Positions 48,474-52,935 of a stretch of DNA of 52,935 nucleotides are shown one piece after another (within the stretch, counting starts at the first letter, position 1; every line of letters starts with the position of its first letter). The DNA comes from Succinivibrio dextrinosolvens DSM 3072. GTDB lineage: Bacteria; Pseudomonadota; Gammaproteobacteria; Enterobacterales; Succinivibrionaceae. The notes under the pieces were generated by a model, which had not been told where the DNA came from, did not search any database, and worked only from the letters and a program-made list of their open reading frames with translations. The stretch is from positions 1 through 52,935 of the forward strand of contig NZ_FUXX01000014.1 in NCBI RefSeq assembly GCF_900167015.1, in the 5' to 3' direction. A program made the translations under genes and the position numbers.

Positions 48474-48623
48474 TTGTTACACTAAAATCAAAGAAAAATA
48501 ATTAAATAAGAAAAGACTTACAGATAGCAAAGGAAACAAAAAAAAATATTGTGACAGAATCTTCTGATTTAGAGTGGTGACAATCTGAAAGTAATCAGAC
48601 TTTAAGATAGGAGGGAAAAGCCG

Positions 48624-48645
48624 TCCCAGACGGTTACGTCTGGGA
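48624..48645 (-). terminator. terminator of the metal-ATPase operon
   Basis: A 9-bp perfect stem TCCCAGACG / CGTCTGGGA with a 4-nt loop; the minus strand continues CGGCTTTTCCC. It lies 11 nt after the stop of the last operon gene. The 247-nt lon-operon spacer holds nothing else I can identify. Confidence 0.78.
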
Positions 48646-48656
48646 TGTGCTTTGTA

Positions 48657-48893
48657 TTACTTAGCTTTCTTAGCAGCCTTCTGCTCTGCAATCAGGTCCT
48701 CTAAGTGCTCTTTCTGAGCCTGAAGCTCTTCCTCTGATAAGGCAGTCTCTTCAGTCTTTGAGAACTTTGAGGTTAAAGAATCAAAAGAACCTAGAATCTG
48801 CTCTTTGTGGTCCTGAAATAGCTTGTAGCCAACAGCACCAGCAACAGCACCTGCTAGTAAGCCGATAAAGAAATCAGTCTTGTTTGATAACAT
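48657..48893 (-). CDS. small YtxH-like membrane protein of the metal-ATPase operon
   Basis: 78 residues. One glycine-rich membrane segment (about 8-25, FFIGLLAGAVAGAVGYKL) is followed by an amphipathic, charged helix to the C-terminus (SEEELQAQKEHLEDLIAEQK). The outline resembles YtxH-type proteins and other membrane-shaping or scaffold proteins with GxxxG packing, but I cannot assign a family firmly. It is the last gene of the operon, 37 nt after the ATPase. If the operon makes a ferrosome-like organelle, this could be a membrane component (inference). Confidence 0.72.
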   Translation of the reverse strand: MLSNKTDFFIGLLAGAVAGAVGYKLFQDHKEQILGSFDSLTSKFSKTEETALSEEELQAQKEHLEDLIAEQKAAKKAK

Positions 48894-48930
48894 ATTTATC
48901 TCCTATCAATTTATTAAGACTTAGTTAAAA

Positions 48931-51090
48931 TTATAAATTATCCAGATCCTGATTGCGTTTAATTTTTTCAAAATTAAACTTCTTATCAAAAAGAATTCTG
49001 GCAGAATTGATTACCACACCTATGGTTGCGGCATTGTGAATTGTTGCAGCAATCAGAGGATTGATTTTACCCAGTGCACCTAGCATCATTGCAGCAGAAT
49101 TAATAGCGATAGTTGCTGCAAAGTTCTGACGAACCAGCCCCATAGTGGACTTAGATAATTCCATAACCTTTGCAAGCTTTAAAGGCTCATCTGAAGTTAT
49201 GGTAATATCTGCAGACTCCATAGCAATATCAGTAGATTTACCTCCTAAGGCAACACCAATATCGGCATAAGCTAAAGCTGGAGCATCGTTAATACCGTCA
49301 CCTACCATCAGAACCTTTGAGTAGCTCTGTTTGCTTGCCACAAACTCAGCTTTTTCGTGAGGCAGAACATCCGACTTATAGCCATCAAGATCAAGTTTTC
49401 CTGCAACATATTCGGCTGTAACCTTGTTGTCACCAGTCAGCATAACAATCTCATCCACACCGTTTCTGCGGATTCTGTTAAGAGTCTTCTTGATGTCCTT
49501 ACGGATTGGATCAGTAATTACCAGAGCGCCTAAAAGCTCACTGTTTCTAGCAACATAAATAATATTGCATTCCTTTGAGAAGCCGGATCTGTCAATGTCA
49601 TTTACTCCAGGAATATGCTTCTCTTTCATGAAGGTTCTGCTACCTACCAGGATCTCTCCGCCCTTATAGCCATCAAAATCAGAAACACTGGCGCTGATAC
49701 CACGACCAACTACTGTTTCAGTCTTTACTTCATGAGGAACATTCCACTCTTTATCCTGAGCGTAGTTGATTACAGCTTCAGCTAAAGGATGTGATGAGGA
49801 TTTCTCGGCAGCTGCTGCTAACAGAACCAGCTCTTTCTCCTCAATCTCATTGCATCTGATGGTATCAATAAGAATTGGGTGACCGTCGGTAATGGTTCCG
49901 GTCTTATCCAGAATAACAGTATCAATATCAGCTAAGGTTTCAATAAAGTTACCGCCCTTGACCAGAACACCAATCTGAGCAGCCTTACTTATTGAAGCAG
50001 AGATTGCTGTTGAGGTTGAAAGCTTCAGACCGCAGCTGAAATCAATGAAGAACATATTCAAAACACGCTGGAAGTCACGGGTTACACCGTAAACTACAGC
50101 AGCTGACAGGAATGAAATTGGCACTAGCGCATTTGCCATTCTGTCAGCAAAGTTCTGGATAGGTGCTCTTCGGTTCTGAGCATTCTCCACCATGTTGATA
50201 ATGCGGGCCAGATTAGTCTCATCACCAACCTTGGAAACTCTGATGGTAATTTCACCGGAACGAACTACAGTACCGGCATAAACTTCCTGTTTAACAGTCT
50301 TGAAAGCAGGAATCGACTCACCGGTCAGTGATGACTGATCAATTGAAGCTTCACCTTCAATAATCACGCCGTCAACGCAGATCTTCTCACCCACGTAAAC
50401 TACGACTTCATCATTTACCATTACATCGTCAATGCTTACCTTAGAAATATGACCCTGCTTATTCTTAAGCCATACATATTTCTCCTTCATATCAAGAAGA
50501 GTTGAAATATGCTGACGAGCCTTCTCTGCCGCACCGATAGTCAGCATCTCAGCAAAGTTGGAAAGAACAAGTAGAGAAAGACTGGACTCAGGCTTGCCAG
50601 AAAGTACAGATGCAAGCACTGCAGTTGCAGTTAAGGTATCTGCATTAGGTGCTTTCTCCTTGATAAGGCCCAATACACCTTCTTTAAAAATATCCTTTGC
50701 AATCAGCAGAACAAAAGCTGTTCTTAAAAAAGACAGATTGGTGAATGCTGTTGGAGACAGACGCTTGAACGCCTCTAAAGCACCAAAGCCGAACAGTGAA
50801 ACCAGAGCTTTGAACTTATAGTTCTTAAGTTCCTCTGATACCGCCTTAATATCATTCTTTTCCTTTTTAGCCTTGGCTTTAAGCTCTTCCCTAACAGGAA
50901 CAAGTCTTAATGCAAAAAGAGCTTTAGCTAAAGACAGCTTGTCTTTAGCATAAACGCTTAAAGTATTGTCCTTTAAAATACAGGCTGATACTACACCTGG
51001 AACCTTTCTTAGCTTATATTCAAGAACAGCAGTGCCTTTTGCACTGTATTCCTGTTCGAGCTTGGTTGTATAGTGAAATACTTGTGCCAT
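48931..51090 (-). CDS. P1B-type heavy-metal ATPase with S-C-G motif (FezB-like candidate)
   Basis: A metal-transporting P-type ATPase, 719 residues. The N-terminal 70 residues form an HMA-like fold without CxxC. Core motifs are SSLTGESIPA, the phosphorylation site DKTGT (Asp about 395), SSSHPLAEAV (the P1B His-Pro) and GDGINDAPAL. The key membrane motif, normally CPC, reads DFSCGLKLSTS (about 347-357). A lone cysteine flanked by Ser and Gly argues against copper or zinc export and fits the P1B-6-like group linked to iron and to the ferrosome ATPase FezB, from memory of the family. The ATG overlaps the upstream stop (TAATG), so it is translationally coupled. Confidence 0.85.
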   Translation of the reverse strand: MAQVFHYTTKLEQEYSAKGTAVLEYKLRKVPGVVSACILKDNTLSVYAKDKLSLAKALFALRLVPVREELKAKAKKEKNDIKAVSEELKNYKFKALVSLFGFGALEAFKRLSPTAFTNLSFLRTAFVLLIAKDIFKEGVLGLIKEKAPNADTLTATAVLASVLSGKPESSLSLLVLSNFAEMLTIGAAEKARQHISTLLDMKEKYVWLKNKQGHISKVSIDDVMVNDEVVVYVGEKICVDGVIIEGEASIDQSSLTGESIPAFKTVKQEVYAGTVVRSGEITIRVSKVGDETNLARIINMVENAQNRRAPIQNFADRMANALVPISFLSAAVVYGVTRDFQRVLNMFFIDFSCGLKLSTSTAISASISKAAQIGVLVKGGNFIETLADIDTVILDKTGTITDGHPILIDTIRCNEIEEKELVLLAAAAEKSSSHPLAEAVINYAQDKEWNVPHEVKTETVVGRGISASVSDFDGYKGGEILVGSRTFMKEKHIPGVNDIDRSGFSKECNIIYVARNSELLGALVITDPIRKDIKKTLNRIRRNGVDEIVMLTGDNKVTAEYVAGKLDLDGYKSDVLPHEKAEFVASKQSYSKVLMVGDGINDAPALAYADIGVALGGKSTDIAMESADITITSDEPLKLAKVMELSKSTMGLVRQNFAATIAINSAAMMLGALGKINPLIAATIHNAATIGVVINSARILFDKKFNFEKIKRNQDLDNL

Positions 51091-51722
51091 TATTTAGTAC
51101 CACCCTCAAGAATCTTATAACCCCACCATACTAAAGAAGGGCCGTTTGGAACCTGATTCTGTGTAAAGACCTTATATCCGCCCCATAAAAGACAGATCGC
51201 ACCGACAACTACAGCAAGATCCGCAACACCGTTAGTTGAGCGCTTTACACATGAGTTAACCTTTGTGGTGTAATTTCTCAAAGACTGACCAATAAGCGAA
51301 TTTCTGCCGATTGATGCTGCCTGCTGTCCAACGCTGTAAGCTGAGGTTGCACCAAGTGTTGAATTGGCAATCTTTGACTTGCTTTCTGCTACCTTAAGGG
51401 TCTGAGCATTCAGATGATCAATTACGGTATCTACATCCTTCTCCTCACATTTATAGGTAAGAAGAATAGTGCCGGTAACATTGTTTACAGTTATCTGATC
51501 GAACAGATCCAATCCTTTTAACTTATTCTTTAACGCATCAGAGAACGATTTATCCTTCAAAAGAACACTCTTATAGCGTCTTCTTCCCTCAATACTGTGT
51601 AAACAGGTAAACATAGCTAATTTGGTATTCTCGTTGAGTTTCTTGTTAGAGTAATTATTAAAAACCATCTGCATTAAAGGCTGAGCTACAGCAATAAGTA
51701 CAGATAAAACGGTAATATTCAT
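51090..51722 (-). CDS. membrane protein with CxxC-less HMA-like domain
   Basis: 210 residues. An N-terminal membrane segment (about 3-22) is followed by an HMA-like domain (about 35-115). Its metal-loop position reads HSIEGRRRYKS instead of CxxC, and its last strand is NNVTGTILLTYK, matching NEVTGSILIEYD in the next protein. A Ser- and Asn-rich linker and a second membrane segment (about 168-185, LAVVVGAICLLWGGYKVF) follow. The stop overlaps the ATPase start by one base. The xGRxR loop is what I recall for HMA-like proteins of ferrosome clusters. Confidence 0.8.
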   Translation of the reverse strand: MNITVLSVLIAVAQPLMQMVFNNYSNKKLNENTKLAMFTCLHSIEGRRRYKSVLLKDKSFSDALKNKLKGLDLFDQITVNNVTGTILLTYKCEEKDVDTVIDHLNAQTLKVAESKSKIANSTLGATSAYSVGQQAASIGRNSLIGQSLRNYTTKVNSCVKRSTNGVADLAVVVGAICLLWGGYKVFTQNQVPNGPSLVWWGYKILEGGTK

Positions 51723-51731
51723 TTAAGTTTC

Positions 51732-52022
51732 CTACTTTCCCGCCTTCTTTCGAAGACAATGTTCAATTTCCAGTAATTCTTTGTTCGAGGCTAATTTATC
51801 AACATCGTATTCAATCAGAATTGAACCGGTTACTTCATTTATGGAAAAGCTATCCAGTTCCTTAAACTGTGAAAAATACTCTTCAAGAGCCTTTGCATTT
51901 TCATGATTTCCCTTGATAAGAGAACTGTATCCTCTGATACGTCCAGGGATATAGCTTGCAACGGTTACAGTTGACAGAAAGTATTTTTTTTCGTTAAAAA
52001 ACTGAGATAAGAAATTAAACAT
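51732..52022 (-). CDS. small CxxC-less HMA-like protein
   Basis: 96 residues, first gene of the operon. The HMA-like fold starts after a short amphipathic helix (FNFLSQFFNEKKYF). The loop that carries CxxC in metallochaperones reads SYIPGRIRGYSS, with two arginines. The final strand is NEVTGSILIEYD. A soluble or membrane-peripheral accessory of the ATPase is likely. AAAGG lies 7 nt before the ATG. A promoter and a TGAT...ATCA dyad lie immediately upstream. The next gene starts 9 nt after its stop. Confidence 0.8.
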   Translation of the reverse strand: MFNFLSQFFNEKKYFLSTVTVASYIPGRIRGYSSLIKGNHENAKALEEYFSQFKELDSFSINEVTGSILIEYDVDKLASNKELLEIEHCLRKKAGK

Positions 52023-52046
52023 AAATTACCTTTTTTAATTTTTAAA

Positions 52047-52069
52047 TGATTTTATTACATAAATAATCA
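52047..52069 (-). promoter_or_regulatory. imperfect dyad overlapping the operon -10, possible Fur-like site
   Basis: A 23-bp element bounded by TGATT and AATCA with partial internal symmetry, covering the -10 box. It is AT-rich and Fur-like in outline but not a good match to the 19-bp Fur consensus. Confidence 0.3.
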
Positions 52070-52083
52070 GTGAGCATAGTCAA
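52054..52083 (-). promoter_or_regulatory. sigma-70-like promoter of the metal-ATPase operon
   Basis: Minus strand: -35 TTGACT (52078-52083), 18-nt spacer, -10 TGTAAT (52054-52059), about 32 nt before the first ATG. Confidence 0.6.
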
Positions 52084-52417
52084 ATCTTTATTACTAATAA
52101 ACAATACAAATTAGCAGAGTCTAACTATTATGATAAAAATCAAGGAAATATTGTTTAATTCATTCCACTTTCAGCATAAATTAGCCATAGCTAATTAGTA
52201 TATGCTAACAGAAATAGTGGAAATTTTCATGCTAAAAAAATTATTTTTTTGACGGGTTAATAACTGTTTTGAAAAATCTATAAATTGTTTATAAAGTCTA
52301 CAAAAATTTTGTAGACTTTTATTTTTTAGGCTTTATTTGATTTTCTACAGAAGGTAGAATACACAGTCTCGTTAATTATTAAAAGAAGCAGCGGAAGCTG
52401 ACAGGTAACATAAAAGA

Positions 52418-52935
52418 ATGATTGTAGGACAGGTTATAGAGCTAAAGGCAAACAATAAGTTTTTCACTTATTGCAGAAAAGCCTTTGGAGTAAAAAGATT
52501 TGCCTACAACTGGTGTGTTGAGAAGTTTAAAAAAGACTATGTTTCACATATAGCCGCCATGAAACGATATACCAGAGAACTTGCCGAGTATAAAAAATCA
52601 CCACTCCAGTCTACAACAGCACCTGTAAAACCTAAACTGCCAACATGGCAGGATTATAAAAAAGAATTCAATGCAATCCGCCTGGAAAAATACCCCTTCA
52701 CTTACGAAGTAACAAAATATGCGTCACAGCAGACCTTCGTCAATTTCGGAACGTCCGTAAAAAGTTACTTTGAAAATGTAAAAAAGAGAAAGAAGACCAA
52801 GGTAAAGAAGAATAGTAAAAAACGAAAAGCATTCTTTCCAAGATTCAAAAAGAAGAGTTACCAGCATGGCTCCTTCTATATAGGCGGTGACCAGGTAAAG
52901 CTTGTAACAGGAAAATCCTGTTCAAAGAAATTAGA
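52418..52935 (+). CDS. tnpB: TnpB-like protein of an IS200/IS605-type element (cut by window end)
   Basis: TnpB is an RNA-guided, RuvC-like nuclease carried by IS200/IS605 and IS607 elements. It is guided by an RNA from the element's right end. The visible 172 residues are the N-terminal part: the helix-turn-helix-like start (CRKAFGVKRFAYNWCVEKF, about 19-37), SQQTFVNFGTSVKSYFENV (about 117-135), a very basic stretch, and PRFKKKSYQHGSFYIGG, the start of the barrel. The RuvC and zinc parts lie beyond the window. No tnpA is seen on the visible side, so it may be a tnpB-only element. No clear ribosome-binding site, though AAAAGA lies just upstream. Confidence 0.85.
   Translation, partial: MIVGQVIELKANNKFFTYCRKAFGVKRFAYNWCVEKFKKDYVSHIAAMKRYTRELAEYKKSPLQSTTAPVKPKLPTWQDYKKEFNAIRLEKYPFTYEVTKYASQQTFVNFGTSVKSYFENVKKRKKTKVKKNSKKRKAFFPRFKKKSYQHGSFYIGGDQVKLVTGKSCSKKL

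Follow-up and report, generated by a model that had tools for sequence, protein, structure and literature searches.

A conserved fez-like operon with predicted links to iron uptake in Succinivibrio dextrinosolvens

Ferrosomes are iron-storing vesicles, and S. putrefaciens is among the bacteria that make them. Experimental demonstrations are described for Desulfovibrio magneticus and Clostridioides difficile (PMC12574912, PMC10979944), R. palustris is stated to form ferrosomes and to have six fez genes (PMC12016538), and RS-1 is described as forming them when iron returns (PMC12748827). In C. difficile FezA and FezB are reported to be required for ferrosomes and to be Fur-repressed (PMC12574912), and the fezAB gene numbers are given in a further account (PMC11651100). 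Here we describe an operon of four genes in a contig of 52,935 nucleotides from S. dextrinosolvens DSM 3072 (the host; assembly GCF_900167015.1, contig NZ_FUXX01000014.1), the whole of which is called the window. The described fez clusters combine FezB, a P1B pump, with a partner protein in the membrane. By sequence, the operon encodes a P1B pump of the non-CPx kind, a pair of HMA_2 partners and a glycine-zipper membrane protein, behind operator-like sites that it has in common with feo. It appears to be conserved, iron-linked and fez-like, and to represent another branch than the one carried by three further genomes of the order. The best explanation, which we hold to be moderately probable, is a fez-like operon of the Fusobacterium/Priestia type that loads Fe(II) into a membrane compartment and is repressed together with iron uptake.

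The four genes lie on the minus strand and encode, in transcription order, proteins of 96 residues (A1, 51732-52022), 210 residues (A2, 51090-51722), 719 residues (the pump, B, 48931-51090) and 78 residues (D, 48657-48893). Gene coordinates bear out the tight packing reported by the first-pass annotation, with a 9-nt gap between A1 and A2, a TAATG overlap between A2 and the pump gene, and a 37-nt gap between the pump gene and D. Compared with the described fez clusters, the window is without the DUF4405 cytochrome FezC. FezC had initially been counted among the HMA-like partners; it is described instead as a DUF4405-like cytochrome (PMC10979944), and the corresponding profile (PF14358) matched none of the 15 genomes comprising the host and 14 genus mates, and five of the nine others searched. 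As the available text on C. difficile names FezA and FezB only (PMC12574912), FezC was not taken as defining. The 78-residue protein and A2 are candidates, and candidates only, for counterparts of FezA.

The pump matches the general P1B models strongly (TIGR01525, 9.7e-156; TIGR01512), and its AlphaFold model (mean pLDDT, the predicted local distance difference test score, 77.5) has P1B pumps as its 17 best PDB matches. Strong general matches would also be expected of an ordinary copper or zinc exporter that had drifted. Transmembrane helix 4 (TM4) of the pump reads DFSCGLK, however, confirming the earlier observation that SCG sits where copper and zinc pumps have CPC, and this replacement occurs in 10/10 window-family pumps (CPC in 0/10). 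The TM4 pattern D-x-x-C-x-x-K/R is found in all ten window-family pumps, both Fusobacterium/Priestia pumps and all 17 proteobacterial FezB-type pumps, in 0/11 CPx-type pumps and in one of the Deinococcus/cyanobacterial pair. Similarly, the TM6 pattern HNxx[ST] (HNAAT in the window) is present in 9/10, 2/2 and 17/17 pumps of the first three groups, against 1/11 CPx-type pumps and 1/2 of the Deinococcus/cyanobacterial pair. By these motifs the pump appears to carry a TM4 signature and a TM6 His-Asn motif in common with proteobacterial FezB-type pumps. This type presumably corresponds to P1B-6.

No CxxC occurs in the first 140 residues of the pump, and its N-terminus has neither a Pfam HMA match nor a GRxR motif. 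The AlphaFold model places elements in HMA order there (E5-10 H17-28 E33-38 E43-48 H51-62; pLDDT about 70-83), and this part is predicted to take an HMA-like fold that has no arginine motif. Of the three arginine-type HMA domains first annotated in the operon, three HMA-like domains thus stand, only two of them arginine-type. An N-terminal GRxR was found in 0/10 window-family pumps, 2/2 Fusobacterium/Priestia pumps and 12 of the 17 proteobacterial FezB-type pumps. In Rhodococcus, a CPC pump (L207:2158-4648) with a small DUF1490 partner has GRIR at its N-terminus, which shows that N-terminal domains of the arginine type also occur outside the non-CPx pumps.

Relationships among the pumps were examined in a quick tree of 42 pumps and a careful tree of 38, from which the host ZntA-like, Nia, FixI and Gloeothece pumps were dropped as long branches (the labels Nia, FixI and PbrA were assigned from position or neighbours, not from records). 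In the careful tree the window family forms a joint clade with the Fusobacterium and Priestia pumps (support 100/100), which are its only two non-proteobacterial relatives there, and the 17 proteobacterial FezB-type pumps fall into a clade of their own (100/99). Eight CPx pumps split off from the non-CPx pumps with support 99/96, to be read with the caution that the quick tree gave 76, and the CopA of the host and the CopA and ZntA of E. coli lie on the far side of this branch from the window pump. Since the pump has SCG in place of CPC, falls in a clade apart from E. coli CopA and ZntA, and stands in a genome that already has two CPC pumps, its identity as a copper or zinc exporter was rejected on these three grounds, and we regard it as very improbable. 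A grouping of the window family with the proteobacterial clade and Deinococcus, to the exclusion of Fusobacterium/Priestia, was also tried and rejected (cost 50.1 log units; approximately unbiased test, p-AU 1.7e-5). An earlier variant with Deinococcus excluded as well gave p-AU 7.2e-6; the former is the cleaner test.

Three genomes of the host's own order (G024, G234 and G312) carry a pump of the proteobacterial-type clade, and acquisition of the operon from outside the order would therefore be the simplest reading of the sequences. A tblastn search of plasmid records (E 1e-100) recovered 14 Priestia records and one Fusobacterium record, and in those inspected HMA_2 genes and the gene for a small glycine-zipper protein were arranged as in the window. 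Phage records gave pump matches of 32-35% identity among the matches listed (10 of 107 records), and a scan of viral contigs with the pump found no relative. A scan of named relatives covered the best 80 of 454, ranked by likeness to the Vibrio-type pump, a ranking in which window-type pumps could not surface.

The Priestia megaterium plasmid clusters, with the order HMA2-HMA2-P-type ATPase-HMA2-small protein, and a similar Fusobacterium vincentii cluster are the closest in layout. Their two HMA_2 genes, pump and small glycine-zipper protein follow one another as in the window, their pumps are 40-44% identical to the window pump, and their small protein ends in a KExxEDxIAE helix. They differ in two ways: the N-terminal domain of the pump itself keeps GRxR, and an extra gene, which is HMA_2 in Priestia and has no Pfam match in Fusobacterium, lies between pump and small protein. 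The FezB-type clusters of Shewanella, Vibrio, Photobacterium, Ferrimonas and Hafnia resemble the window in their TM4/TM6 signatures, HMA_2-type partners and pump-adjacent small protein, but belong to a separate pump clade and have extra Gly/Pro/Tyr-rich and second glycine-zipper genes.

Among 40 genomes searched, the pump was found at E 1e-100 in 14, the host included: 12/19 of the genus, two of the five other genomes of the family and 0/16 of other families. Twelve of these 14 clusters were retrieved, the window among them (G010 and G018 were left out). A small glycine-zipper gene follows the pump in 11/11 clusters, and in the twelfth the contig ends inside the pump. Five of the 11 have two such genes after the pump; in this subtype (L038, L039, L043, L045 and L048) the second copy is without an LEDLIAE-like ending.

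Both partner proteins scored above the cut-off of the HMA_2 profile PF19991 (A1, E 2.8e-15; A2, E 1.1e-21), A2 covering profile positions 8-154 of 154 and ending in a hydrophobic C-terminal part; the AlphaFold model of A2 was too poor for use (mean pLDDT 45.7). The arginine loops given in the first-pass annotation are present, IPGRIR in A1 and IEGRRR in A2, and the motifs I-x-G-R-x-R and N-x-x-T-G are common to A1, A2 and the HMA_2-type proteins of six Shewanella/Vibrio/Photobacterium clusters. HMA_2 partners thus occur with both pump groups, the window type and the proteobacterial FezB type. The domain was present in 15/40 genomes searched and in 13/397 drawn from the phylum, host included. 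Three genus mates also have a 220-221-residue HMA_2-type protein related to A2 and encoded apart from the pump cluster (L046:5117-5779, L047:8871-9536, L044:7865-8527).

The last gene, as first annotated, encodes a small one-pass membrane protein, with a glycine-zipper transmembrane helix followed by a C-terminal EELQAQKEHLEDLIAE helix. Its weak DUF3948 and ssl2009-family matches fell below cut-off. The same ending occurs in the corresponding Fusobacterium (MKEHIEDLIAE) and Priestia (EELQAQKERLEDMIAE) proteins, and in Vibrio-type clusters the protein adjoining the pump carries a similar one, VEELKERLEDTQAEL. A profile built from 11 seeds of the window family, Fusobacterium and Priestia, none of them from the searched set, was run against 8,652 open reading frames of 86 other loci; 181 of these frames directly adjoin a pump. 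It matched 64 at E<=1, and 56 of these directly adjoin the pump, so that a pump-adjacent small protein was picked in 56 of the 81 loci where a pump was recognised. Taken one by one the matches are weak (best pump-adjacent E-value, 0.0024), many of the loci come from related species, and helical composition may raise the score; a p value for the enrichment should therefore not be taken at face value. The suggestion that the 78-residue protein is specific to the lineage was rejected on this result, with look-alikes next to the pump in Priestia, in Fusobacterium and in many clusters of proteobacteria. In two records the pump-adjacent protein is annotated with a YtxH domain; in one of these, Azospirillum, the profile missed it and matched another gene of the cluster. 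Our literature search found no paper joining ferrosome with YtxH. A widespread small partner protein beside the pump, as these matches indicate, is among the most useful new points.

Upstream of the operon, 89-186 bases before its first gene, lie three copies of the pattern TTAGCNNNNGCTAA: one exact (52181-52194) and two with one mismatch (52195-52208 and 52111-52124). They share with the published DtxR consensus TTAGGTTAGCCTAACCTAA (PMC7762939) a TTAG-N6-CTAA core, present exactly as TTAGCTATGGCTAA and also as TTAGCATATACTAA and TTAGACTCTGCTAA, and are predicted to be DtxR-type operators. The operon differs here from the fez genes of C. difficile, for which Fur repression is described. As the pattern was derived from the operon promoter, other regions are the actual test. 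Sites with at most one mismatch were found upstream of 8/11 fez clusters, four of which, the window included, are near-identical relatives. Sites with one and two mismatches precede the host feoA (p 0.027), a one-mismatch site precedes feoA of the relative G023 (p 0.020), and an exact site lies 391 bases before the fur-like gene of the host fur-dtxR pair (p 0.003); five of five control regions had no site within two mismatches. Exact sites number six in the host genome (2.67 Mb, 104 contigs including the window; assembly 97% complete): those of the fez and fur-dtxR regions, one about 50 bases upstream of a porin-like gene of 360 residues, and three that fall within other reading frames. When one mismatch is tolerated the count is 97, versus 64 for a reversed control, so a lone one-mismatch site is weak evidence. 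The apparent sharing of DtxR-like sites by the operon and feoA is likewise among the most useful new points. No operator-like site was found upstream of the A2-related genes in L044 and L047, the two such regions checked, and a Fur-box-like sequence, GATAATGATTATC, was noted by eye in the divergent upstream region of the G024 cluster, which is of proteobacterial type (L042, upstream of 7828).

The regulator that might act at these sites bears on a second alternative, that the metal pumped is a different one, for example manganese, whether or not a compartment is involved. The host has a DtxR-family protein of 149 residues (PF02742, 1.1e-15) that adjoins a Fur-family protein; no further domain, and no SH3 domain, was matched in it, and family members without the SH3 domain are reported to be unresponsive to iron in vivo (PMC7762939). 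Manganese control of the operon is therefore possible. Against another metal stand the site upstream of the host feoA and the cluster of G023, where the A2, pump and small-protein genes come after feoA and feoB in the same orientation. Two other FezB-type clusters also adjoin iron transport genes: FeoA and TonB-receptor genes in Cereibacter, and an iron ABC transporter in Azospirillum. On balance we consider a pump for another metal distinctly improbable. In G023 the A2 frame (L050:7600-7914) seems broken by a stop, beside the assembly gap. The host feoAB stands elsewhere, not with the operon; there feoA and feoB are followed on the same strand by genes for a 73-residue HMA-like protein and a 621-residue CPC-type P1B pump (L053:1763-6547, G000:C33).

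For iron storage itself, the only ferritin-family match in the host genome was a rubrerythrin, and encapsulin had no match there. Because genus mates without the pump likewise gave no strong ferritin match, and because the pump carrier G010 has a strong ferritin-family one, we take the absence of ferritin as context and not as proof. Our literature search found no paper on iron storage in Succinivibrio.

Taken together, these observations suggest that the operon probably functions in iron storage. At low iron a DtxR-family repressor would release, so that FeoAB and the operon would be made together; the HMA_2 proteins would deliver Fe(II) to the pump or guide it there, and the pump would carry it out of the cytosol into compartments bounded by membrane, for whose shape or assembly the small glycine-zipper protein may be needed. 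The resulting store would serve a cell whose genome yielded no gene for ferritin, Dps or encapsulin. Making such a system under iron scarcity fits the reported Fur repression of FezA and FezB in C. difficile (PMC12574912). The main rival is efflux, in which a pump of the plasma membrane, helped by the HMA_2 proteins, would export cytosolic Fe(II) with no compartment, and no sequence feature requires an organelle. Yet with operator-like sites common to the host feoA, efflux would be switched on with uptake at low iron, which makes little sense for detoxification, and the small glycine-zipper partner that recurs beside the pump is, to our knowledge, no part of simple exporters. We consider efflux unlikely.

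Several points weigh against storage by a fez-like system. The non-CPx P1B pump, HMA_2 partners, FezB-type signatures and ferrous-iron context support the fez-like assignment first proposed, but the pump falls outside the proteobacterial FezB-type clade, and in an unrooted reading a 100/99 branch leaves the window clade together with the CPx pumps. Beyond its own clade, the best match of the window pump in the compared set is the Rhodococcus CPC pump (35%), and a grouping of the window clade with that pump was rejected only at the borderline (p-AU 0.059). The experimentally proven FezB proteins (RS-1, S. putrefaciens, R. palustris, C. difficile) are not in the tree. Among the operator-like sites, none was found upstream of the fez clusters of G007 and G022 (the G022 start being unsure), that of G008 has two mismatches and is at chance level (p 0.17), and several further sites reach shuffle p values of only 0.02-0.03. 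The regulator's missing SH3 match, with the manganese control it allows, belongs here too. No pump-adjacent match to the small-protein profile was obtained, even at E 10, in 16/81 loci, mostly of purple sulfur bacteria with Azospirillum, Cereibacter and Deinococcus. The G023 scaffold has a run of 1,476 N inside or behind feoB. Finally, genus mates without the pump are also without a strong ferritin match, and G010 has a strong ferritin-family gene (1.8e-32; L234:279-830, G010:C157); the gene lies on a contig of 3.9 kb, and the assembly has a listed contamination of 3%.

At the operon's ends, the single promoter first annotated was not borne out, promoter predictions (7) not exceeding those in shuffled sequence (mean 11.1). 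A GC-rich hairpin 3' of the last gene (48622-48647, minus strand) is a plausible terminator, terminator-like sites numbering 5 versus 3.0 in shuffles. On the other side, an IS605 OrfB/TnpB-like frame (52418-52935; PF12323, 20.1 bits, just under the cut-off of 21) starts ahead of the operon in the divergent direction and is cut off by the end of the contig.

A broader proposal, which we offer as tentative, is that a horizontally acquired ferrosome branch common to Firmicutes and Fusobacteria serves as the main iron store of mostly ferritin-less gammaproteobacteria, under FeoAB-linked control of DtxR rather than Fur type. The arginine HMA function would have moved from the pump to separate proteins, and the glycine-zipper protein with its KExLEDLIAE-like helix would be needed, as a widespread, unnamed ferrosome-building part across phyla. 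Iron organelles have been described in few bacteria. Should the operon make one, they would extend to another family of gammaproteobacteria, by a route unlike that of other members of its order, and the pump-adjacent small protein would become a widespread candidate for a role in building vesicles. From the DtxR-like sites one would also predict the timing, at iron limitation and the shift back to iron.

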